Shown here piece by piece: positions 24,316 through 36,236 of a stretch of 64,000 bases of DNA. Every line of letters begins with the position of its first letter. The stretch's first letter is position 1. Made by a program: the position numbers and the translations under genes. The stretch is from Citrobacter enshiensis (GTDB lineage Bacteria; Pseudomonadota; Gammaproteobacteria; Enterobacterales; Enterobacteriaceae), in contig NZ_CP119862.1 in NCBI RefSeq assembly GCF_029338175.1, positions 4,310,839-4,374,838 on the forward strand, given 5' to 3'. The notes below the pieces were generated by a model. The model saw nothing but the letters and a program-made list of their open reading frames with translations, was not told where the DNA came from and made no database searches.

Positions 24316-25061
24316 AGGTGCTGGCGAAAAAAGGAGACCGTGGCTGCCAGGGCTTCTGGCGTAATACGGTGGCGTACTCCCACCTCCCATAAACAGGTCA
24401 GATTCTTATCCAGTCCCCGTTGGCTCAACGCTTGCTGCAAGCGTAATGATTCCGTGGCAGGAACCACATCATCTGCCTGCCCATGCCACAGCAGCAGCGG
24501 TCGATTTGCCACATGAGTCAGTTGCTCCGTCACTTCCCACTCGGCCAGCGGGGCAAGTATCTTGTCGAATTCAGCCTGTTGCGAAGGTGTTTCCAGTGAG
24601 GACGGGGGAAAGAGCGTCTGTGCCAGTTGGGTGAAATACCCCGATCCCATCAGACTGGCGACGCATTTCACCTCTGGATGACGCGTCATAATGCCCAACG
24701 CGGTCATGCCGCCCATCGACGCCCCTCCTACTGCCAGGCGTTCGTTCAGAATCCAGTTTTCCGCCTGCGCTGCCGCACGTAACGCAGCGAATTCCTGCAT
24801 ATTTTGCTGCAGAATTTGCCAGAATTGCCAGGTTCGCCACTGTGCATCACCGGTAAATCGTACGCCGTGCTCCGGCGCATCAGGCATAATAACCCGATAC
24901 CCGGCCTGTGCCAGTGCAACAGCGAAGTAGCTATACACGAGGCTGGAAGAGGTGAACCCATGATAAAAAATGAGACAAGGCAGCGGTGCCTCACGTTTTC
25001 CCTGCGGAAACGCATGAAGGACGGGATTCTCTGCCAGATACCGTGTTTCAATCTCTATCAT
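24312..25061 (-). CDS. yjfP: YjfP, alpha/beta-hydrolase esterase
   Basis: 249 aa, the E. coli length. It has the alpha/beta-hydrolase oxyanion and nucleophile motifs: FYHGFTSSS near residue 30, GGASMGG (Ser nucleophile near 115) and a late Asp/His pair (GQADDVVPA; VRHRITPE). In vitro carboxylesterase activity is known for the family; the physiological substrate is not. I chose the ATG at 25061 (AGAGGTG upstream), which matches E. coli. The stop overlaps the ulaR remnant by 4 bases. Confidence 0.93.
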   Translation of the reverse strand: MIEIETRYLAENPVLHAFPQGKREAPLPCLIFYHGFTSSSLVYSYFAVALAQAGYRVIMPDAPEHGVRFTGDAQWRTWQFWQILQQNMQEFAALRAAAQAENWILNERLAVGGASMGGMTALGIMTRHPEVKCVASLMGSGYFTQLAQTLFPPSSLETPSQQAEFDKILAPLAEWEVTEQLTHVANRPLLLWHGQADDVVPATESLRLQQALSQRGLDKNLTCLWEVGVRHRITPEALAATVSFFRQHL

Positions 25062-25244
25062 TTTTACACCTCTTTTATTCTGGTATGCCACGGCAAAATT
25101 CATAGCGCAAGTTTATGAGTTCGACAATGATTCACAATGTTGAGAACTGGGTTACGCTTTCGCAACATTTTCATTCGAAAATCGCGTGAGAGATAACAAT
25201 TCGGGAACATTCCCCCTAAAGGGAAATTAATAAGGCACTACACT

Positions 25245-25574
25245 ATGGCTATCAGGAAACGAGATAGAGTTATGCGCCGGTTTGCCTCTTTGATGCTGGT
25301 TTTATTCTTAAGCGGCTGCAGTGTACTTCAGGGTACTCCGCAACCTGCACCACCCGTCACTGACCAACCTCAGGAAATTCGCCGCGACCAGTCACATGGG
25401 TTGCAACGACTGGGGACGGTGAGCGCCCTGGTTCGGGGTTCCCCGGATGATGCCGTGGCGGAAATCAGAGCGAAGGCCATCGCCGCTAAAGCAGATTATT
25501 ACGTTATTTTGTTGGTCGATGAAACCATCGTGACAGGTCAGTGGTATTCGCAGGCCATTTTATATCGTAAATAA
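25245..25574 (+). CDS. bsmA: BsmA (YjfO), DUF1471 lipoprotein, biofilm and stress protein
   Basis: 109 aa with a lipoprotein signal: hydrophobic stretch LMLVLFLSGC with lipobox LSGC (Cys about 26). The DUF1471 domain ends WYSQAILYRK. In E. coli BsmA is involved in biofilm stress resistance and peroxide response. The ATG at 25245 gives the E. coli length; an internal ATG at 25272 is possible. Divergent from yjfP. Confidence 0.92.
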   Translation: MAIRKRDRVMRRFASLMLVLFLSGCSVLQGTPQPAPPVTDQPQEIRRDQSHGLQRLGTVSALVRGSPDDAVAEIRAKAIAAKADYYVILLVDETIVTGQWYSQAILYRK

Positions 25575-25720
25575 CAGTAGATTGATTTTTAGTCAGTTTT
25601 ACATTGCTTTGCGTGCCTATGCGTTTACCTGTGCACAATGAACCGATAGCAGGGTGCTGGAGGTTTATTACCGCGACGGAATGCCCTACCCAGGTGGGGA
25701 AACGTAAAATGGAGCTGACG

Positions 25721-25996
25721 ATGAAACAATCTATTGCCTTATCCTCACTGCTGGTTCCAGCCGGACTGGTGAGTACCACGGCACAGTCTGCCGAATTCGC
25801 CAGTGCTGACTGCGTCACAGGCCTGAACGAAATTGGCCAGATTTCCGTCAGCAATATTGCAGGAAACCCGCAGGATGTGGAACGTATCGTGGCGTTAAAA
25901 GCTGATGAGCAAGGCGCCTCCTGGTACCGCATTATTCAGATGTACGAAGATCAGCAGCCTGATAACTGGCGCGTACAAGCCATCCTGTATGCCTGA
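25721..25996 (+). CDS. yjfN: YjfN, small periplasmic DUF1471 protein, DegP activator family
   Basis: A 91-aa precursor (E. coli 91) with signal peptide ending TTAQSA before EFA. The DUF1471 domain ends WRVQAILYA, with the small hydrophobic C-terminus that in E. coli YjfN lets it activate and be degraded by the protease DegP. The ATG at 25721 has GGAG upstream; an in-frame ATG at 25709 would add four residues. It lies 146 bp after bsmA on the same strand. Confidence 0.9.
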   Translation: MKQSIALSSLLVPAGLVSTTAQSAEFASADCVTGLNEIGQISVSNIAGNPQDVERIVALKADEQGASWYRIIQMYEDQQPDNWRVQAILYA

Positions 25997-26004
25997 TTCT
26001 TCGC

Positions 26005-26043
26005 GTAGGCCGGGTGACAGCGTTTGCGCTTAACCCAGCCTAC
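26005..26043. repeat. REP-like palindrome between yjfN and aidB
   Basis: GTAGGCCGGG...CCCAGCCTAC, an imperfect REP palindrome between the convergent 3' ends of yjfN and aidB. Confidence 0.7.
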
Positions 26044-26054
26044 GAGCCTGGCCT

Positions 26055-27677
26055 CTAGCGTAATCCCCCTGTCGCTCTCAGGAGCAAATCGTTCTGCACC
26101 TGAGCGGACAAACGCGCCACGCCGCGCGTGTCCAGCATCATCTGGCACCAGGCCTGCGCCACCGGCGGAGATGCATACCGCAGCATTTGCGCCCCACACC
26201 CGAGCAAGAAGAGTTGCTGCGCTACCTCCCGCCCTTGTTCCTCAGAAGGCTTGTGCAATCGCTGCTGTAGTTGACGCACTGCGCGATCGTAATAGCGATC
26301 CTGGCCTTTGACTTCGGCAAAGGCGTCGGCCAGCAACGCGTAAACACCGCTTTGTTTGCTCAACACCCGAAGCACGTCCAGGCACATGATGTTGCCAGAG
26401 CCCTCCCAGATACTGTTCACCGGCATTTCCCGGTACAAACGTGGCAACTCGCTCTCTTCGCAGTAGCCCATTCCGCCAAGCACTTCCATCGCCTCGGCAA
26501 CAAACGGAATACCGCTTTTACACACCGCGAACTTCGCTGCAGGGGTGAATAAACGCGCCCAGAGCGCTTCTTTCTCATCGCGGCGACGATCCCACGCACG
26601 AGCCAGTCGAAACAACAGCGCCGTCTGGCCTTCAAGTTGTAACGCCATACGGCTCAGCACCTGACGCATCATCGGCTGTTCAACCAGCGGTTTGCCAAAT
26701 ACCTGCCGTTGATGGGCGTGATAGATCGCCACAGAAAATGCCCGGCGCATCATCCCATGACTGCCCAGCGCGCAATCAAAACGTGTCATCCCACCCATCT
26801 TCAGGATATGCCTGATCCCCTCGCCTTCTTCGCCTAACAGCCAGCCAATCGCATCCTGAAACTCCACTTCGCAACTGGCATTAGAACGGTTGCCCAGCTT
26901 GTCTTTCAGCCGTTCAAAACGGATGGCATTTCGCTGCCCATCAGGTAAAAAGCGCGGTACGAAGAAGCAAGAGAGTCCGCCTTTTGCCTGCGCCAAAACA
27001 AGATGCGCATCGCTTTGCGGAACGGAGAAGAACCATTTATGCCCCACCAGCCGGTATGCGCCATCGTCAAGGCGTTCCGCAAAAGTGGTATTGCTCAGAA
27101 CATCAGATCCGCCCTGCTTTTCCGTCATTCCCATGCCAATCAGTAGGCCACGCTTTTGCCCGCCAGGGAGAAGATGAGAGTCGTAGCGATCGCTACCAAG
27201 AGGCGTCTGCCAGTTATGGAAAGGAGTGGGTAACATCTGTCGCAACAGCGGCGTCGCCGCAAAGGTCATCGTGATGGGGCAAAGCGTTCCCGCTTCCACC
27301 TGAGCATGCAGCATAAAGCGCGCCGCACGGGCAACAAACGACCCTGTGCGGGCATCGTCTTCCCAGGCCAGATTATGTACGCGGTTCGCGCACAACCCCT
27401 GCATCAGCAGGTGCCAGGCAGGATGAAAACGCACATCATCCAGGCGCTGTCCCTGTGGGTCGTAGCGCAATAATTCAGGGGGACACATGTTGGCCAGACG
27501 CCCCAATTCCAGCGATTCTGCGGTGCCTAACTGTTGGCCAATACTGGCGAGCAGATCGCTATCCCAGCCAGCGCCTTCCCGGGCGACGGCTTCGTACAGC
27601 GCGCCATCAGACAGAAATAAATTGCTGTTATTGAGTGGAACGGGTTGGTTAAAAACGGTATGCGTTTGCCAGTGCAT
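26055..27677 (-). CDS. aidB: AidB, acyl-CoA dehydrogenase-like DNA alkylation-response protein
   Basis: 540 aa (E. coli 541). It has the acyl-CoA dehydrogenase fold with FAD-binding stretches (MGMTEKQGGSDVLSNTT; GHKWFFS) and the NSIWEGSGNIM motif near residue 430, then a C-terminal DNA-binding extension. In E. coli aidB is induced by Ada and binds DNA and FAD to protect against alkylation. The ATG at 27677 has GGAGGGAGAC upstream. Convergent with yjfN; 84 bp separate it from yjfC upstream. I did not recognise an Ada box. Confidence 0.95.
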   Translation of the reverse strand: MHWQTHTVFNQPVPLNNSNLFLSDGALYEAVAREGAGWDSDLLASIGQQLGTAESLELGRLANMCPPELLRYDPQGQRLDDVRFHPAWHLLMQGLCANRVHNLAWEDDARTGSFVARAARFMLHAQVEAGTLCPITMTFAATPLLRQMLPTPFHNWQTPLGSDRYDSHLLPGGQKRGLLIGMGMTEKQGGSDVLSNTTFAERLDDGAYRLVGHKWFFSVPQSDAHLVLAQAKGGLSCFFVPRFLPDGQRNAIRFERLKDKLGNRSNASCEVEFQDAIGWLLGEEGEGIRHILKMGGMTRFDCALGSHGMMRRAFSVAIYHAHQRQVFGKPLVEQPMMRQVLSRMALQLEGQTALLFRLARAWDRRRDEKEALWARLFTPAAKFAVCKSGIPFVAEAMEVLGGMGYCEESELPRLYREMPVNSIWEGSGNIMCLDVLRVLSKQSGVYALLADAFAEVKGQDRYYDRAVRQLQQRLHKPSEEQGREVAQQLFLLGCGAQMLRYASPPVAQAWCQMMLDTRGVARLSAQVQNDLLLRATGGLR

Positions 27678-27761
27678 GATGTCTCCCTCCGCCAATGGCA
27701 GTAACTGTAAGTATGGTCAGTACTGCGCCACCGGCTGCGGAGGGAGATCACAAAAGCCGGA

Positions 27762-28928
27762 TCAACCCGAAATATAATGCGGGACGTAACGTGAAGTATC
27801 TTTCGTAATCAAGGTATTATCTTCTCTGATACCCATGCCTGACGCCTCATCATCAACAATCCAACTGCCGATCAGCGTGTAGCTCTCGCCAAAACGCGGC
27901 AACGGCTGAAACGCCTGGTAGATCATCGGCTCGTCGGCATAATCGCCATCAGCGTGTTCAAGCACATTGTTCTTGCCATCAAAGAGGGTGACATTACCGC
28001 CTTCACGGGAGTAGATGGGTTTGCGCACATAGCTTTCACCGGGCTGAATACACGGCTTTTCACCGTCAAACCAGGCGGGTAACAGATTGGGATGGTTGGG
28101 GAAAAAGCGCCACAGTAGCGGCATCAGCCCTTTATTGCTGAGAACACTCTTCCACAGCGGCTCAATCCACTGTTCACGGCGTTTACGCAGGAGTGGGCCA
28201 TTATCATCACGCATCATCCACTCCAGTGGATACAGCTTAAATGCGCGACGAATCACGTTGTCGTCAAGATCGGTCAGCACGCCGCCGACGCCAAGGCCAA
28301 GATCCTCAATATAGATAAACCGCGTCTCCTGCCCCGCCTGCTGTGCGCAGTCCTGCAAATACAGCACCGTGGAGCGATCTTCATCGCTTTCTTCGCAACA
28401 ACAGAAGTAGAGCGGCTCCTGGCTGTACAGCTCGCCAAAGCGGGAGATTAGGCGTTCCTGTATCGCATTATATTGATCGGCATCGCGCGGAATCATACCG
28501 CTGCGCCGGGCATCTTCCAGCCACAGCCACTGGAAATAGGCAGACTCATATAGCGAGGTGGGCGTATCTGCGTTGTATTCCAGCAGTTTGACCGGCGCAT
28601 TGTTACCGCACCAGACGAAATCCATCCGTCCGTACAGGGAAGGATCGCGGCTGCGCCAGCTTTCTGCGATAACATCCCAGTACAGCGGCGGGATCGCCAG
28701 TTGCTGCATAATATGTTCGTCCTTCACCGCCCGCTCGACCACGTCCAGGCACATCTGATGAAGTTCAGCGGTCGGTTTTTCGATCTGCTCTTCAATCTGT
28801 CGCAGCGTAAACCGATATGCCCGGCTCTCGTCCCAGTAAATTTCGTTGTCGATAATATGAAAATCGAAGCCGTGATCGCAGGCGATCTTATCCAGATCTC
28901 TGCGCACAGGTACGTCATGTCGCAACAT
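27762..28928 (-). CDS. yjfC: YjfC, glutathionylspermidine-synthase-like ATP-grasp protein
   Basis: 388 aa (E. coli 387). It is a stand-alone GSP-synthase ATP-grasp domain without the amidase half of Gss. Conserved stretches include LLEYNADTPTSL (substrate carboxylate loop, about 115), ESYVRKPIYSREGGNV (ATP-binding, about 295-310) and IGSWIVDDEASGMGIRED near the end. By family it should ligate a carboxylate to an amine using ATP, but the substrate is unknown. Last gene of the yjfI-yjfC operon, 2 bp after yjfM. Confidence 0.92.
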   Translation of the reverse strand: MLRHDVPVRRDLDKIACDHGFDFHIIDNEIYWDESRAYRFTLRQIEEQIEKPTAELHQMCLDVVERAVKDEHIMQQLAIPPLYWDVIAESWRSRDPSLYGRMDFVWCGNNAPVKLLEYNADTPTSLYESAYFQWLWLEDARRSGMIPRDADQYNAIQERLISRFGELYSQEPLYFCCCEESDEDRSTVLYLQDCAQQAGQETRFIYIEDLGLGVGGVLTDLDDNVIRRAFKLYPLEWMMRDDNGPLLRKRREQWIEPLWKSVLSNKGLMPLLWRFFPNHPNLLPAWFDGEKPCIQPGESYVRKPIYSREGGNVTLFDGKNNVLEHADGDYADEPMIYQAFQPLPRFGESYTLIGSWIVDDEASGMGIREDNTLITKDTSRYVPHYISG

Positions 28929-28930
28929 GA

Positions 28931-29572
28931 TTATCCTCCCCAGGAGCCGCGCGCACTGGACGAGCGCCCATATCCGCCGCGAGAAACCGTTGACGCTTTC
29001 TTCGTGCTATAGCCATGGCTGGTTGCGGTATCGCTTTTGCCGGAGCCAGAACGCCAGGAGTAGTCTCCTGATGTCGTGCGCCAGACGGGACGCGAGGCGT
29101 AAGACGACCCACCGCTGCTGTATGCATATTGATCATCCCGGTCTTTGCGAATAGCTCTGCTGAGCAGAAAGCCAGCAACAACGGGGATCCAACTCTGGCT
29201 GGTTGTGTCAAGATAGCAATTGCCAAACTGCGACTGACAACGCTCCTGATTCATCTCCTTGGGTAAATTCGCATAAAAGTCATTCTTCGCGTTGTTCCAG
29301 CCTTCTGCGCAAATGGCCGCACCATTACCATCATCAATGCAATCCTGCACCGATGAGTAAAAGACGCCATCGCCGTCGTTATCCGCATTGCTGTCATCAC
29401 TGCATCCCTTAAGGATAAAAAATGCAGCGCCGCCCATGATCGCCAGCGTCAGGTATTTACCGGTATACCGGCTGCGTTTAGGTTCAAAAGGATTGACCGG
29501 GCGATCAATTCGGGTGATTGCAGAATGCCCAACCCCTGTTTTTTGCTGTCTGGAACTTTGTTTTTTTGCCAT
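28931..29572 (-). CDS. yjfM: YjfM, DUF1190 membrane-anchored protein
   Basis: 213 aa. It has a basic N-terminus, one transmembrane segment (YLTLAIMGGAAFFILKGC, about 40-57), a region with an acidic Asp-rich patch (SNADNDGDGVFY) and several cysteines, and a low-complexity Gly/Ser/Arg-rich tail ending GRSSSARGSWGG. A lipobox-like KGCS is present but too far from the N-terminus to be convincing. The function is unknown. In the operon between yjfL (9-bp gap) and yjfC (2-bp gap). Confidence 0.9.
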   Translation of the reverse strand: MAKKQSSRQQKTGVGHSAITRIDRPVNPFEPKRSRYTGKYLTLAIMGGAAFFILKGCSDDSNADNDGDGVFYSSVQDCIDDGNGAAICAEGWNNAKNDFYANLPKEMNQERCQSQFGNCYLDTTSQSWIPVVAGFLLSRAIRKDRDDQYAYSSGGSSYASRPVWRTTSGDYSWRSGSGKSDTATSHGYSTKKASTVSRGGYGRSSSARGSWGG

Positions 29573-29581
29573 GATCGTCCA

Positions 29582-29980
29582 TTACCATGTCATACAGGCG
29601 GCGTTGAAAATACCCCCTGCCAGCGCGGCAGTGCCCATAAACATTCCCGCTGCTGTGTTGTGATTAATAATTTTTTCGCTCAGTGTCGGCATATACAACC
29701 GCACACCACCGTAAATCATCAGTTGGATCACCAGCGCAATTCCGCCCCAGGCAAAATAATCCGGTATGCTGACCGAATTGATTGCCGCGCTGGATAATGG
29801 AATAGCGTAGCCCAACAATGTGCCGCTAAAAGCCAGTGATGCTGCCGTATTATTGTTTTTAATCAATTGCCATTCATTGTGAGGCGTAATTTTTGAATAG
29901 ACAAAAAGGAACAGTATCACCATGGCTGCACCGATAAAAAAATAGGAGCAAAAAGCCACTAATGAATCCAGTATATGCAT
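29582..29980 (-). CDS. yjfL: YjfL, DUF350 four-helix inner-membrane protein
   Basis: 132 aa (E. coli 132) with four hydrophobic segments: about 6-28, 50-68, 75-95 and 112-130. It contains the DUF350 pattern NNTAASLAFSGTLLGYAIPLSS and ends NHNTAAGMFMGTAALAGGIFNAA. I chose the internal ATG at 29980 because it gives the E. coli protein; an upstream start overlaps yjfK. The function is unknown, but DUF350 genes recur next to PspA-like and ATP-grasp genes. Confidence 0.93.
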   Translation of the reverse strand: MHILDSLVAFCSYFFIGAAMVILFLFVYSKITPHNEWQLIKNNNTAASLAFSGTLLGYAIPLSSAAINSVSIPDYFAWGGIALVIQLMIYGGVRLYMPTLSEKIINHNTAAGMFMGTAALAGGIFNAACMTW

Positions 29981-29997
29981 CTCTTTCTTCCCTGTGT

Positions 29998-30657
29998 TTA
30001 ACCAATAATATTCAGTGACGTTAATGGGATATCCACTCCCAGCGCGCGGGAAAATACCCACTCCGGTTCACCTTGATCATTAAACGACTCTTCACCGTTT
30101 AACAGCAGATATTCCCAAGTCCCTTCTGCAACCTGACGCTGGTATCCCATCGTAAAATTATGGACATCCCACTTCGCATTCTGCTCATTTTCTACCTTCT
30201 CTAACATGTATACCGGTTCAATATTGCCAGGTTCTTCACGATTAAAAAAACGCTGCCAGTGCCGATGCTCCCAGGATAACGTCGGAGTACCGATGGATTC
30301 CGGACTGATTACCGAACGCCAGTGTTTTTCCTGATTGATACCATAACTCTCTGCATAAACAAGGAGTTTAATATCCTCAATATCATCAGTATCCATGCCG
30401 CCCGTCGTACTGATTTGCAAGAACTCATCACCCGAAGTGTAGTACCGAAAGATCTGACTACCGCCGCCAAGGTCTATATGACTGATGGCAGCCACAGTAT
30501 ATTCTTCTCCTGGCAGCGTCACTAATAGCTCATCGTCTAATAGCCGAAATGCTAACGTATCGAGGGTAAAACCACAGTTCAGATGCAATCCCAGCGGCCC
30601 CCGAACAGGCACACACGTATTATCCTTACCAAATAAGCGCTGTAAAAAACTGGTCAT
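29998..30657 (-). CDS. yjfK: YjfK, DUF2491 cytoplasmic protein of unknown function
   Basis: 219 aa, the E. coli length, with no signal peptide or membrane segment. It belongs to the DUF2491 family and has no recognisable catalytic motif. Its ATG overlaps the stop of the upstream K+ channel gene by 4 bases (ATGA), and yjfL follows 17 bp later, so it is part of the same polycistronic unit. Confidence 0.92.
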   Translation of the reverse strand: MTSFLQRLFGKDNTCVPVRGPLGLHLNCGFTLDTLAFRLLDDELLVTLPGEEYTVAAISHIDLGGGSQIFRYYTSGDEFLQISTTGGMDTDDIEDIKLLVYAESYGINQEKHWRSVISPESIGTPTLSWEHRHWQRFFNREEPGNIEPVYMLEKVENEQNAKWDVHNFTMGYQRQVAEGTWEYLLLNGEESFNDQGEPEWVFSRALGVDIPLTSLNIIG

Positions 30658-31724
30658 AAACTTCCCTCTATATTTTGCCAGTTAACGTCTTCCGCCAAAA
30701 TGCGGCTATTGCCAATCAGATGCAGCCACATACCTCCCTTTACTTCCGTCGCGACGACTGGATTAAGTTCTATTCCCCGTCCGTTTTTACAGCAACTAAT
30801 TCCCAGCACGGTGGCATCATGATGAAGTTTCATATAACGCATCAACGCCCCATAACGCACAGGCGTCACCCATTCAGGGATAGGTAAGGCAAATCCGGTA
30901 TCACCCAGCATCGGATTCATTATGGATACAACAGACTGGGACGAACCAGGATCCTGAATAGAACGAGAAAGCTGCTCAGCAGAAATATTTCTTACTATTT
31001 CAATACGCTGGCAGTGCGTCTCCAGTAATCTTGCGTAACGTTCATCTTCCAGATAGGCAACTATATGGCATCTTTCAGGAATAAAATCCGCCAGAGAAAG
31101 CGCAGCAGTAAACGTCTGTTCATCGGTACGCGCAAAAATGATAACACTCTGACAATTCGGCAGTCCCATTCGGGTATGTTCATGAGGATCGTTAAAATTA
31201 CTGACCCGAATAAAATCTACCCAGTTATTACCAGGCATAGGATGTTGAATATCCTCCCGCTCACATAAAAGTACCCGCCCAAACGCTCTTCGGGTATCGT
31301 ACAGCAATAATGAGATCATTTTTTCGGTCTGATGACCGCGCCACCCGACAACCAACATATGGTTGTGCAAATTATGATAATCGCCCATTCCCGTCATTCC
31401 TTTCGCGAGCATTCCTTGCACTAACGCGATGACTTTCCCCATTAACGCACCGAATAATCCGACACTGACTGGAATTTGCCAAAGCGCAGTAAAAACTCGT
31501 CCTCCTGCCGTCTGGGGGCTTAGATCGCCAAATCCAGTCGTTGAGCCAACAACTGAGCAGTAATAAATGAAATTGCTCAATCGTCCCACTAGCGTTTCTT
31601 CATCCAGTAGTACAAAAACCAGGTAACACAACAGGTATTGCCCTGCAAATAACCCCGCTAACGCAGGCCAGGTCAGTCTGGAGAGATGACGCTGAAAGGT
31701 CCTGATAATCCAATAGAAAGGCAT
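30654..31724 (-). CDS. Two-helix potassium channel-like protein with RCK/TrkA-N domain
   Basis: 356 aa. It has a basic N-terminal cytosolic segment, TM1 about 21-40, a pore helix and selectivity filter STTGFGDLSP (62-67 being TTGFGD in place of the usual TVGYGD), TM2 about 78-104, then an RCK-like Rossmann domain starting NHMLVVGWRGHQTEK (121-135). The second half may carry a degenerate RCK_C. This layout is that of ligand-gated K+ channels. The ATG at 31724 overlaps the yjfJ stop by one base (TGATG) and the stop overlaps yjfK by four bases, so it is fully embedded in the yjf operon. E. coli K-12 has no gene between yjfJ and yjfK, as I recall. Confidence 0.88.
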   Translation of the reverse strand: MPFYWIIRTFQRHLSRLTWPALAGLFAGQYLLCYLVFVLLDEETLVGRLSNFIYYCSVVGSTTGFGDLSPQTAGGRVFTALWQIPVSVGLFGALMGKVIALVQGMLAKGMTGMGDYHNLHNHMLVVGWRGHQTEKMISLLLYDTRRAFGRVLLCEREDIQHPMPGNNWVDFIRVSNFNDPHEHTRMGLPNCQSVIIFARTDEQTFTAALSLADFIPERCHIVAYLEDERYARLLETHCQRIEIVRNISAEQLSRSIQDPGSSQSVVSIMNPMLGDTGFALPIPEWVTPVRYGALMRYMKLHHDATVLGISCCKNGRGIELNPVVATEVKGGMWLHLIGNSRILAEDVNWQNIEGSL

Positions 31725-32422
31725 CACTCACCTTGCTGACGCTGTAGCCTTGCCAGCACATCCTGTGCACTGCTTTTCGTGTTTGTGCCAATCCCTGCTT
31801 CTGCCAGTTTTTCGTCCAGATCGCGGCCATCAGCCACTTTTTCCAGTTGTGCCGCCGCATCCAGACGAGCCTGACGTTCGGCCTGACGGGTTTGTAAGCG
31901 TTTGAGAGACTCCGCCGCCGTCGAGACGTTAGAAGACGCGCCGAGGGTGGAAGTCGTAACGGCCTGCTGCGCACGCTGCATCGCCTCCGTCGCTTTAACA
32001 ACTTCAAGCTGTTGCTCAAACTGCGCGATACGCTGGGCCGTAGCCGTTACAGCTCTTTCCACACCATCACGCGCAATTTCAAGGTTAGCAAGCACTTGCT
32101 CTTCCGCCGCGATGAGGTTTTCCAGACGCGCAATCTCACTAGCCACTTCATTAATTAAAGAGGCATCGATATTTTTATTGAGCGCTTCAAGCGCACGCTT
32201 CTCAAGATTGGATTGACGCTCATGCAAATCTTTCAATTTGTCATTGCTGAGTTTTACCCGAGCAAGCAGGTCTACGCGTGACTTTCCGGCTTTATCAAGC
32301 TCACCTTTCGCATCACGAATATGCTGTTCCAGCATTCGCACTCCCTGAGCCTCTTCAATGGACTCTTCTGCCTGAGAGATCATAGATTTGCCAAGCGTAA
32401 ATAAACTTTTCAGAATTCCCAT
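31724..32422 (-). CDS. yjfJ: YjfJ, PspA/IM30-family membrane-associated coiled-coil protein
   Basis: 232 aa (E. coli 232), almost entirely helical coiled coil and beginning MGILKSLFTLGKSMISQAEESIEE, the amphipathic N-terminal helix plus helix 1 of the PspA/Vipp1 fold. PspA-family proteins assemble on the inner membrane and respond to envelope stress. There is a 13-bp gap after yjfI and the stop touches the start of the channel gene. Confidence 0.93.
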   Translation of the reverse strand: MGILKSLFTLGKSMISQAEESIEEAQGVRMLEQHIRDAKGELDKAGKSRVDLLARVKLSNDKLKDLHERQSNLEKRALEALNKNIDASLINEVASEIARLENLIAAEEQVLANLEIARDGVERAVTATAQRIAQFEQQLEVVKATEAMQRAQQAVTTSTLGASSNVSTAAESLKRLQTRQAERQARLDAAAQLEKVADGRDLDEKLAEAGIGTNTKSSAQDVLARLQRQQGE

Positions 32423-32435
32423 TATGCGTTCCTTA

Positions 32436-32840
32436 TTATTCCTGTACGTATTCTTCAGTCACTTCAGCAAGATCTAATGCATTTTCGACCAGTGTTATGA
32501 TTTCGAGCATGATGTCTTCCAGCGAAGAATTCAGCGACAATGCCCCAAACGCGACGTAATACTCTTCGTTCTGCACCAGCGAAATACCCACGGATGAGAG
32601 CGGCAGAATTTTTTGGTTGCGCAATAAGAAAACGTTAAATTCAGCTTGATTATCAATACAATTTAGCGGGCAAATCAGGGTTTCAATAATAATCTGGCGG
32701 GAAGTGAATAATATAGCAAGTTGCAGGTCGCCATAATCATTCATATTAACAATTAAAGATTTTTCATTATACTTTATTTCAATATTTAAACCGTCAATCT
32801 TTTGTAACGCTTCGGCAAGCGTCAGCGGAGTCCATGACAT
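32436..32840 (-). CDS. yjfI: YjfI, DUF2170 protein of unknown function
   Basis: A 134-aa cytoplasmic acidic protein of the DUF2170 family (E. coli 133), secretion-chaperone-like in size and in composition of its beta/alpha core. It is first in the yjfI-yjfJ-channel-yjfK-yjfL-yjfM-yjfC operon and lies downstream of rlmB beyond a terminator, so a promoter at 32841-32930 is expected. The function is unknown. Confidence 0.9.
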   Translation of the reverse strand: MSWTPLTLAEALQKIDGLNIEIKYNEKSLIVNMNDYGDLQLAILFTSRQIIIETLICPLNCIDNQAEFNVFLLRNQKILPLSSVGISLVQNEEYYVAFGALSLNSSLEDIMLEIITLVENALDLAEVTEEYVQE

Positions 32841-32928
32841 ATATTATTCCATGTGTTATTTATTTAAATATAAACCAAATGAATGTTTATTTTTCTTTAT
32901 TATATTACTCACTTTGGATAAAAAAAAA

Positions 32929-32954
32929 CCACCCCAAAAAGGATGGTTTTTTTC
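32929..32954 (-). terminator. Terminator after rlmB
   Basis: Minus strand: AAACCATCC-TTTTT-GGGGTGGTTT followed by TTTTTTATCC, 13 bp after the rlmB stop. It separates the nsrR-rnr-rlmB unit from yjfI. Confidence 0.8.
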
Positions 32955-32966
32955 TGAAAATTAAAA

Positions 32967-33698
32967 CTAACTGCGTTGGCGTACGGCCTCAAACAGGCAG
33001 ATCCCCGTCGCAACGGAAACGTTAAGCGACGAAACGCTACCCGCCATTGGGATGCTGATCAGCTCATCACAGTGTTCACGGGTCAGGCGACGCATACCTT
33101 CGCCTTCCGCGCCCATCACCAGCGCCAGACGGCCGGTCATTTTGCTCTGGTACAACGTATGGTCGGCCTCACCGGCCGTACCCACGATCCAGATGTTCTC
33201 TTCCTGTAACATGCGCATGGTGCGCGCCAGGTTGGTCACACGGATCAGCGGCACGTTCTCGGCAGCGCCACAGGCGACTTTTTTGGCCGTCGCATTCAAC
33301 AGCGCGGAGCGATCCTTCGGCACAATCACCGCATGGACGCCAGCCGCATCGGCGCTACGCAGACACGCACCCAGGTTGTGCGGGTCGGTCACGCCGTCAA
33401 GAATTAACAGAAACGGTTGATCGAGTGAGGCAAGCAGATCCGGCAGATCGTTTTCCTGATACTGGCGGCCAGGCTTCACACGCGCAATAATTCCCTGATG
33501 TACCGCACCCTCACTTTTCTCATCCAGGAACTGGCGGTTCGCCAACTGGATGACAACACCCTGCGCTTCCAGAGCATGGATCAGCGGCAGCAGGCGCTTG
33601 TCTTCACGGCCTTTCAAAATAAAGACATCCTGAAAACGCTCAGGAGCACGCTCCAGCAGGGCCTGCACCGCATGGATGCCGTAAATCATTTCACTCAT
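32967..33698 (-). CDS. rlmB: RlmB, 23S rRNA (guanosine-2'-O-)-methyltransferase (G2251)
   Basis: 243 aa, a SPOUT-class enzyme with an N-terminal substrate-binding domain (about 1-75) and the C-terminal knotted methyltransferase domain. Motifs seen are [29 protein letters not shown] and [16 protein letters not shown]. It uses S-adenosylmethionine to methylate G2251 in the peptidyl-transferase loop. It follows rnr by 87 bp containing a REP. Confidence 0.97.
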
Positions 33699-33743
33699 GA
33701 ATATACTCGTTAATGGTTAATGTTGCCGTCATCGGCATGTAAC

Positions 33744-33773
33744 GCCGGGCGGCGATGCTCGCGCCCGGCCTAC
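33744..33773. repeat. REP element between rnr and rlmB
   Basis: GCCGGGCGGCGATG-CTCGCGCCCGGCCTAC, a typical REP palindrome with the CCTAC tail, in the intergenic part of a co-transcribed pair. Confidence 0.85.
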
Positions 33774-33785
33774 AGTGTCATGTCG

Positions 33786-36236
33786 TTATTCAGCGACTTT
33801 CTTCTTTGCCACGCGTTTTGCCTTTGTAGCAGCCGCGATTTTAAGCGTTTTTGCCGACGGCTTTTTCGCTTTTTTATCGCCTTTTTTCTCAGCTTTAGGT
33901 TTAGCCGCTTTGCCTTTCTTCTCACCACGGAAGGCGCTGTCCGGCTCGAAATTCACCTTTTTGCCAGCCTGACGGCGTTTGCCAGCGGGTTTCCCGTTAT
34001 CGCCTTTTTTCGTTTTCTCACGCGCCGTTTTCCCGACGTTGCGCGGCGCGCGCTCGCTGGAGATCAGGCTAAAGTCGATTTTACGCTCATCCATGTTGAC
34101 CGCTTCGACCTTAACTTCCACGCGATCGCCCAGACGATACATCTGACCACTGGATTCGCCGGTCAGACGTTGCCCAACCTGATCGAAACGATAATAGTCG
34201 TTATCCAGGGAAGAGACGTGGACCAGACCATCAATAAACAGTTCATCAAGACGGACGAAGAACCCAAAGCCTGTCACGCTGGCAATCACGCCCTTAAAGA
34301 CGTTCCCCACCTGATCCAGCATAAAGTCACACTTCAGCCAGTCAGAAACGTCACGCGTGGCTTCATCAGCACGGCGTTCGGTCATGGAACAGTGCTGGCC
34401 CAGTTGCAGCATCTCTTCCATCGAGTAGTGGTAGCCGCCTGTCTCGGTGCTGTTACCTTTATGGCCCTGCTCTTTCGCCAGCAAATATTTGATCGCACGG
34501 TGCAATGAGAGATCCGGATAACGGCGGATAGGCGACGTAAAGTGCGCATATTGCTGCAGTGCCAGACCAAAGTGCCCACGGTTTTCTGGATCGTAAATCG
34601 CCTGCTTCATTGAGCGCAGCAGCATGGTTTGCAGCATTTCTGCGTCGGGTCTGCCCTGGACCGACTCCAGTAGCTCCGCGTAGTCACGCGGTTCTGGTTT
34701 GTTACCGCCCGGCAGTTCCAGCCCCAGTTCTGCCAGTACCGAACGGAAGGAGGTGATCGCTTCCGTCGTCGGCTTGTCGTGGATACGGAACAGCGCAGGC
34801 TCTGCAGCTTTCTCAACAAAGCGTGCCGCTGAGATATTTGCCAGAATCATGCACTCTTCAATCAGTTTGTGCGCGTCGTTGCGCTGCGTCTGCTCAATGC
34901 GTTCGATACGGCGTTCGGCGTTGAAAATAAACTTCGCTTCTTCGCTCTCAAAAGAGATACCGCCACGTTCTTCACGCGCGGTGTCCAGCACCTTGTAAAG
35001 GTTGTGCAGCTCTTCGATGTGTTTCACCAGCGGCGCATACTGCTCACGCAGATCCTGATCGCCCTGCAGCATATGCCAAACCTTGGTATAGGTCAGTCGC
35101 GCATGAGAGCTCATCACCGCTTCATAGAATTTATAGCCGGTCAGACGCCCTTTGGTAGACACGGTCATTTCACAGACCATACACAGGCGATCAACCTGCG
35201 GGTTCAGTGAACACAAACCGTTTGAGAGCACTTCCGGCAGCATTGGCACAACCTGCGACGGGAAGTAAACCGACGTCCCGCGATTGCGCGCTTCCTGATC
35301 CAGCGGTGTCGGCGGACGCACGTAATAGCTAACGTCAGCAATCGCGACCCATAAACGCCAGCCACCGCCGCGTTTTTTCTCGCAATAGACGGCATCGTCA
35401 AAGTCACGCGCATCTTCACCATCGATAGTCACCAACGGCAAGTCCCGCAGATCGACGCGGCCTGCTTTCGCCTCTTCCGGCACTTCTTCTTTCAGCCCGG
35501 CAACTTGTTTTTCAACCGCTGCTGGCCAAATGTAAGGGATTTCATGGGTACGCAGCGCCATATCGACAGCCATGCCGGTGCCCATATTGTCACCCAGAAC
35601 TTCGACAATTTTACCCACGGCTTTGGTGCGACGGGTCGGGCGTTGGGTGAGTTCCACCACCACCACAAAGCCCATACGCGCACCCATCACCTCTTCAGGT
35701 GGGATCAGAATGTCAAAGCTCAGGCGGCTGTCGTCCGGCACCACGAATCCCACGCCAGCATCGGTGAAGTAACGACCAACAATCTGGCTGGTTTTCGGAA
35801 CCAGCACGCGCACGATACGCGCTTCACGACGACCTTTACGGTCAGCACCCAACGGCTGCGCCAGCACCTGATCGCCATGAATGCAGGTTTTCATCTGCTC
35901 GCTGGAAAGGTACAAATCATCTTTGCGACCTTCGACGCGTAAAAAACCGTAGCCATCACGATGGCCAATAACGGTGCCTTTCAGTAAGTCGAGACGTTCC
36001 GGCAGCGCATAACACTGGCGGCGAGTGAAGACCAGTTGCCCGTCACGCTCCATGGCGCGCAGACGACGGCGCAGGGCTTCCAGCTGCTCTTCGCCTTCAA
36101 TATTCAGTTCAACGGCCAGTTCATCACGGTTGGCCGGTTTTTCGCGTTTCGTTAAATGTTCGAGGATATATTCCCGGCTCGGGATAGGGTTCGCGTATTT
36201 TTCAGCTTCGCGTTCCTGGAAAGGATCATGTGACAT
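33786..36236 (-). CDS. rnr: Ribonuclease R, 3'-5' exoribonuclease
   Basis: 816 aa (E. coli 813). Domain order: N-terminal helix-turn-helix, two OB cold-shock domains (about 85-225), RNB catalytic domain (about 260-590) with the acidic metal motif [12 protein letters not shown], an S1 domain (about 640-725) and a Lys/Ala-rich basic tail ending AKKKVAE. It degrades structured RNA and takes part in mRNA and rRNA quality control and in cold and stationary-phase survival. It follows nsrR by 38 bp and precedes rlmB. Confidence 0.97.

Follow-up and report, generated by a model that had tools for sequence, protein, structure and literature searches.

A conserved RGGFG tail accompanies the YjfC-type peptide-spermidine ligase and marks the membrane-anchored protein YjfM as its candidate substrate

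Among the operons that combine CesT/Tir-type and PspA proteins, the third group of Ravi 2024 (PMC11237479) carries a GspS-like ATP-grasp ligase together with a DUF2170-type CesT/Tir protein, PspA, a K+ channel, DUF2491, DUF350 and DUF1190; the sections of that account consulted here present DUF1190 as a metal-chelating lipoprotein and mention no conserved tail, ligase link or substrate role for it. A DUF2170/PspA combination also constitutes the bac operon of Pseudomonas aeruginosa, according to an excerpt of PMC10948618. The E. coli proteins YgiC and YjfC have been reported to be peptide-spermidine ligases (Pederick 2023, as cited in PMC10948618, PMC12568646 and PMC12270671), and YgiC is stated to lack glutathionylspermidine synthase activity (excerpt of PMC12506659, citing Sui 2012). 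Solved structures and in-vitro activity are on record for these enzymes, and no native substrate was found in the literature searched, which was available in part. Here the same gene set is described from Citrobacter enshiensis, in a window of 64,000 nucleotides (contig NZ_CP119862.1, positions 4,310,839 to 4,374,838; this whole stretch is the window, and positions below are its own unless stated), where seven open reading frames (ORFs) on the minus strand, yjfI to yjfC, together span 27762-32840. The operon and the activity of its ligase are already known; what is new is a glycine-rich tail, RGGFG, that is linked to the ligase, together with a substrate prediction, as the occurrence of a tail-bearing partner beside the ligase across phyla makes this tail the best candidate, judged by sequence, for the natural target of the enzyme.

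The ligase of the window is a direct orthologue of E. coli YjfC with a standalone GspS-like fold. Its AlphaFold2 (AF2) model, with a mean predicted local distance difference test score (pLDDT) of 93.2, superposes on E. coli YjfC (7uk6) with a Z of 59.7 and a root-mean-square deviation of 1.1 over 387 residues at 91% identity, followed by YgiC (Z 48.4), GspS with bound glutathione and ADP (2io9, Z 46.4) and trypanothione synthetase (Z 37.4). YjfC consists of the single Pfam domain GSP_synth and has no N-terminal amidase domain; against NCBIfam PRK10507.1 it scores 157.9 bits, the cut-off being 882, and it is thus not a bifunctional glutathionylspermidine synthetase/amidase. GspS couples spermidine to the C-terminal glycine of glutathione, and by this analogy YjfC should couple spermidine to some C-terminal carboxyl. 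An amide-forming activity had been proposed for the locus from its sequence in an earlier reading (hereafter the original prediction), and was right in kind, as the E. coli orthologues of the Pederick 2023 structures (7uk6, 7uk7, 7uk8 and 7uka, of which 7uk6, 7uk8 and 7uka are apo or ADP-bound) are reported peptide-spermidine ligases; the accompanying remark that no function is established has been overtaken, for the ligase, by that same work, which is known here through papers citing it.

The most constant companion of the ligase is the product of the gene beside it. A standalone GSP_synth protein is encoded in 46 of 197 genomes of the order, at 49 loci altogether; this count leaves aside GSP_synth matches in frames of more than about 600 amino acids (aa) that cover the bifunctional enzyme, as well as two fragments (G174:C2 and G547:C228), and ORF starts are uncurated throughout. 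A DUF1190-like gene adjoins the ligase at all 49 loci, 48 times directly upstream on the same strand and once divergently. The Pfam DUF1190 model is matched in 41 of the 46 genomes with a standalone ligase, always at a copy number of 1:1 with it, versus none of the 151 genomes without one (Fisher's exact test 3e-37, relatedness being ignored), 17 of which have only the bifunctional GspS-amidase. The remaining five of the 46 carry a diverged DUF1190 relative with a tail. In a small-genome family (L158-L163), the ligase stands with a DUF1190 relative bearing RGGF...GG, and five of these six genomes were missed by the Pfam model.

The C-terminus of these partners is strikingly uniform. Of 51 DUF1190 proteins taken from the order loci and from two loci of the class, 46 terminate in GG, four in GS and one in RA, and RGGF or a near form precedes this end. 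When the survey was extended to the phylum by 65 further loci, 92 DUF1190 matches exceeded 60 bits, a score below which the relatives of L158-L163 fell, and their ends were GG 76, GS 9, SS 4, and GT, AT and RA one each. Removal of sequences with more than 80% identity left 65 DUF1190 proteins, 52 of which end in GG; of 1817 background ORFs, 23 do. Identity across all 65 is confined to four cysteines (78, 88, 112 and 119 in YjfM), one proline, and the second and third glycines of RGGFG (G200 and G202), and a lipobox-like cysteine, Cys57 of YjfM, is present in 86% of them. The tail of two E. coli YjfM proteins reads RGGYG...WGG. At one locus (L154; G226:C8) a second ligase copy has a divergent DUF1190 whose GG end is lost (RRGGFGGTARRTMISVRA), as if selection had been relaxed or specificity changed; at another (L184, 3642-4298), the YjfM of a close relative has SWGANHAAT in place of SWGG, with loss of the last glycine and an extension of the protein by five residues.

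The tail is also found beyond DUF1190. A further 80 loci, obtained by scanning contigs with a ligase alignment, are those most similar to a single query out of at least 590 and so not a random sample; they belong to Bacteroidota, Actinomycetota, Acidobacteriota, Planctomycetota, sphingomonads, deltaproteobacteria and others. The YjfM profile is matched at only 13 of these 80 loci, and the tail is nevertheless kept at most of them. With a strict tail defined as R-x-G-[FLYW]-x within the last 60 residues of a ligase-adjacent ORF, it is found at 160 of 194 ligase loci (47 of 49 in the order, 44 of 65 in the phylum extension and 69 of 80 across phyla), and exact RGGFG at 128 of the 194. Among 3426 other ORFs of at least 150 aa, a background that may include a few displaced partners, the strict pattern occurs 53 times and exact RGGFG 12 times. 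Shuffling of the tails gave RGGFG 0.23 times on average and at most three times, against the 128 observed; since the 160 shuffled tails had been selected by the motif, this comparison shows only that their composition does not create RGGFG. At 31 of the 34 loci that miss the strict definition, the tail is present in a relaxed or displaced form, as judged by eye and after the fact; HGGFG or SGGFG may stand in for the canonical motif, for example, or the partner may be encoded at another place in the locus. The odder ones are the degenerate L154, L195, where the partner lies 5.2 kb away, and L292, which has GFG only.

The 160 strict tails share further features. Just ahead of the motif, [TS][VI][ST] is preferred; 152 tails place the motif 7-27 residues from their end, and glycine is the penultimate residue in 84%. 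The last residue is glycine in 94 (59%) and serine in 54 (34%), with glutamate in seven, alanine in two, and threonine, tryptophan and leucine in one each; 125 of the 160 end in G-G or G-S. A lipobox-like cysteine is present in 118 of the 160 tail ORFs, whose starts are uncurated, and a single hydrophobic segment in some others.

Control loci and motif searches of the whole genome indicate, at the level of sequence, that the tail tracks the ligase and not DUF350 or PspA. Of nineteen hand-picked DUF350 loci without a ligase, ten have PspA/YjfI, and at none of the nineteen was an RGGFG-tailed ORF found; a relaxed pattern appears in five ORFs at four of the 19, in no case as RGGFG. Likewise, no RGGFG-tailed ORF was seen at a lone DUF350 locus (L164). 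Two motif searches of the genome that contains the window returned 19 places, and only in YgiB and YjfM (the latter at genome positions 4339806-4339819) does the match fall near a C-terminus that ends in GG. YgiB belongs to a second such pair of the same genome, YgiB-YgiC, at genome positions 674305-676010, and the genome also encodes a bifunctional GspS-amidase. In four other ORFs of this genome (L329, L330, L332 and L338), the motif or its serine form lies 14-28 residues before an end other than GG. Ten loci (L344, L345, L346, L349, L351, L352, L354, L356, L357 and L358) have DUF2170-PspA pairs and a long DUF350 with neither ligase nor tail, and look like the second of the operon types in Ravi 2024. 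DUF4247 was considered as an actinobacterial partner and rejected, as it is present in one of seven ligase-bearing genomes and its tail is RGGG, not RGGFG; in Micromonospora (L363, 1432-1857), DUF4247 ends in RGGGPGAGK and the next ORF looks DUF350-like by eye.

Taken together with the expected chemistry of the ligase, these observations lead us to propose that two proteins at the heart of the operon form a protein-modification system, in which YjfC probably couples spermidine to the carboxyl group at the C-terminus of YjfM. YjfM would be a membrane protein with one anchor, or a lipoprotein, with a cysteine-containing region and a tail rich in glycine and serine. Cytoplasmic YjfC would read RGG[FY]G in this tail, convert the C-terminal carboxyl into an acyl phosphate, and allow an amine of spermidine to attack it, yielding a C-terminal spermidine amide and a gain of 127.15 Da (spermidine minus water), comparable with the shift of 127.147 given for spermidine on a glycine end in an excerpt of PMC12270671. 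Basic residues ahead of the anchor point to a tail outside the membrane, and since the ligase needs cytoplasmic ATP, the coupling would need to take place before export or in the course of it. The product would be a polycation tethered at the envelope, with its C-terminus shielded from proteases that read C-terminal ends; that the bound polyamine bridges anionic envelope polymers, or blocks such proteases, are guesses at its physiological role. YjfL (DUF350) would often accompany the pair, and YjfI-YjfJ(PspA)-YjfK and the K+ channel would be modules added to it. In its general form, the proposal is that many phyla possess a ubiquitin-free, one-enzyme protein polyamination in which an ATP-grasp ligase reads RGGFG and adds a spermidine cap before export, the motif serving as a portable tag, and on this wider claim we find belief and doubt about evenly balanced. 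If true, it would mean a widespread bacterial modification of proteins by polyamines that ties the cell envelope to the supply of polyamines, and C-terminal amidation would gain a sequence tag that can be moved between proteins. The conserved tail narrows the substrate gap to one direct mass-spectrometry question.

Several points weigh against this proposal. The last residue of the tail is variable, whereas GspS uses glycine; the strict tail is rarer in the wider phylum than in the order; the ends at L154 and L184 are altered; and no tail-bearing partner is visible at three of the 194 ligase loci (L236, L242 and L262). Export timing is the weakest step of the scheme. The link between YjfC and YjfM is one of sequence, not biochemistry, and the AF2 model of YjfM, with a mean pLDDT of 49, is a low-confidence one and was kept out of the evidence; YjfM ends in GG and matches only DUF1190 in Pfam, and the question of a beta-grasp fold, as in ubiquitin-like modifiers, rests on that same low-confidence model. 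Finally, no statement of an RGGFG tail or of a substrate role for YgiB or YjfM was found in the partly available literature searched, which did not include Pederick 2023 itself, a paper that may already name or exclude YgiB/YjfM.

Of the alternatives, the one that survives best, unlikely as we judge it, holds that RGGFG is a docking signal through which YjfM recruits the ligase to the membrane, the spermidine going to a different peptide, such as a glutathione-like or wall-derived one. RGGFG is indeed more constant than the last residue of the tail, and YgiC, annotated as cytoplasmic, has been detected in an inner-membrane proteome (excerpt of PMC4858940), both of which would fit docking, the proteome result being equally in line with the main proposal; however, the short and regular distance of the motif from the C-terminus and the prevalence of G-G or G-S ends would be needless for docking, and the other five operon families follow the ligase less constantly than YjfM does, the survey having covered operon families. 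A second alternative, that YjfM is a receptor or carrier whose tail holds or displays a small polyamine made by the ligase, would draw on the description of DUF1190 as a metal-chelating lipoprotein in the consulted sections of Ravi 2024 and on the four invariant cysteines, but it leaves the bias in the extreme C-terminus unexplained, and diverged partners keep little beyond anchor, cysteines and tail, so that we consider it improbable.

The remaining genes of the operon are nested optional parts around a near-constant pair of ligase and anchored partner. At the 114 same-phylum ligase loci (49 of the order and the 65 of the extension), yjfL is found 77 times, yjfJ (PspA) 36 times and the channel 25 times; yjfI, yjfJ and yjfK stay together, and the channel is found only in company with all three. 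At the 80 cross-phyla loci, mostly outside the phylum, no match to YjfI, YjfJ or YjfK was obtained at an E of 1e-4, and the channel gave four weak matches of 32-50 bits. Among 5426 E. coli genomes, 5375 contain yjfC-like DNA, at a median of two places that probably include the paralogue ygiC, and 13 contain the channel. In an E. coli strain with the channel (L365, 4495-5565) the gene order is that of the window; in E. coli NCTC9064, which is without it, yjfJ and yjfK are separated by 50 bases (L364, 3225-3274) with a GCCAGCC/GGCTGGC inverted repeat. These module counts argue that the seven genes do not form one obligate machine, and the frequent absence of PspA, channel and yjfIJK shows ligase and partner persisting without them; a conserved-neighbourhood comparison, which had been suggested as a check, returns the ligase and its DUF1190-like partner as the near-constant unit. 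The original prediction had read all seven proteins as one membrane-stress machine. An obligate assembly of the seven, centred on PspA and the K+ channel, is rejected here because the parts are nested and optional, and we hold it improbable, even though the genes are tightly spaced, nothing in the sequence points to promoters or terminators within the set, yjfIJK are kept together, and yjfIJKL are strongly up as a unit in heat-evolved E. coli, which an excerpt of PMC12492005 ascribes to a promoter deletion. A role in anti-phage defence was also rejected, PADLOC having given only three weak matches, all to coiled-coil YjfJ (E 0.003-0.009). A Pfam scan of eight proteins from the locus gave no match to PspB, PspC or PspF of the classical Psp system.

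In other respects the original prediction, which is partly supported overall, described the locus well: the seven genes have the extent, overlaps and gaps that it gave, all seven family assignments exceed the curated Pfam cut-offs (DUF2170, PspA_IM30, Ion_trans_2, DUF2491, DUF350, DUF1190 and GSP_synth; Table 1), and the gene set is already in print in PMC11237479. The window has adjacent DUF2170 and PspA_IM30 genes, as in the Ravi 2024 group, along with the other five families.

Table 1. Annotated features of the yjfI-yjfC locus, in window positions.
Feature	Positions	Strand	Basis
Hairpin with T-run, rlmB/yjfI intergenic	32922..32953		13-nt arms, 92% complementary
yjfI: DUF2170, relative of P. 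aeruginosa BacA	32436..32840	-	Pfam E 9e-41
yjfJ: PspA/IM30-family coiled coil	31724..32422	-	Pfam E 1e-51
K+ channel: two-helix with RCK-type domain, optional operon part	30654..31724	-	Pfam Ion_trans_2; MthK
yjfK: DUF2491	29998..30657	-	Pfam E 2e-62
yjfL: DUF350 small membrane protein	29582..29980	-	Pfam E 2e-34
yjfM: DUF1190, membrane-anchored, predicted YjfC substrate	28931..29572	-	Pfam DUF1190
YjfM C-terminal tail codons, R198-GGYG to SWGG-COOH	28934..28981	-	Motif predicted to be recognised, and predicted acceptor end
yjfC: standalone GspS-like ATP-grasp peptide-spermidine ligase, 388 aa	27762..28928	-	Pfam GSP_synth E 4e-148

From yjfI to yjfC the intergenic distances are 13, -1 (or -4), -4, 17, 9 and 2 bases. 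The channel overlaps yjfJ by one base if it starts at the ATG at 31724, which matches the annotation in the E. coli strain carrying the channel, and by four with the upstream GTG at 31727; the 17-base gap follows from the yjfL ATG at 29980. Residues 52-287 of the channel match MthK, that is, the pore and the RCK-type domain, which bears out its earlier description as a two-helix RCK channel. YjfI scores under the cut-off of the NCBIfam BacA model and is related to the solved DUF2170 protein 8q8o (E 2e-16); no sequence relative of YjfK was found in the Protein Data Bank. YjfJ, YjfL and YjfM are likely linked to the membrane. Within 27600-33000, promoter-like matches (seven, 8.0 being expected) and terminator-like matches (seven, 5.6 being expected) occur at chance level, and there is accordingly no sign in the sequence of the internal transcription units that would have counted against a single operon, which is no proof of a single transcript. 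No Rfam element reached its gathering score within 25000-34000. The hairpin between rlmB and yjfI is likely the rlmB terminator. The gene yjfI is AT-rich, with a GC content of 0.39 compared with 0.532 for the window. Downstream of yjfC, aidB follows in the same direction (ATG at 27677) after a gap of 84 bases, and aidB is present at three of 129 annotated loci.

Among better characterised enzymes, the bifunctional glutathionylspermidine synthetase/amidase (GspSA) and trypanothione synthetase share their fold with YjfC across the whole of its model (Z 46.5 and 37.4), and their reaction is likewise of the type that joins a C-terminal carboxyl to spermidine. In contrast to GspSA, YjfC is standalone, has no amidase domain and is accompanied by a constant neighbour protein with a conserved end, a neighbour that the GspSA-only genomes lack altogether. 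A further parallel is offered by the PEARL peptide ligases, an enzyme family that we take to be unrelated to YjfC. They too use ATP to extend a dedicated scaffold peptide at its C-terminus, but PEARL enzymes add an amino acid in a tRNA-dependent manner, unlike the spermidine coupling proposed here (excerpt of PMC10979984). A likeness in product is seen in the eukaryotic conjugation of spermidine to SUMO and ubiquitin, in which, according to the available part of PMC12270671, spermidine is likewise placed on the carboxyl of a C-terminal Gly-Gly; there E1 and E2 enzymes are used, whereas the system in the window would employ one ATP-grasp enzyme and an anchored protein.

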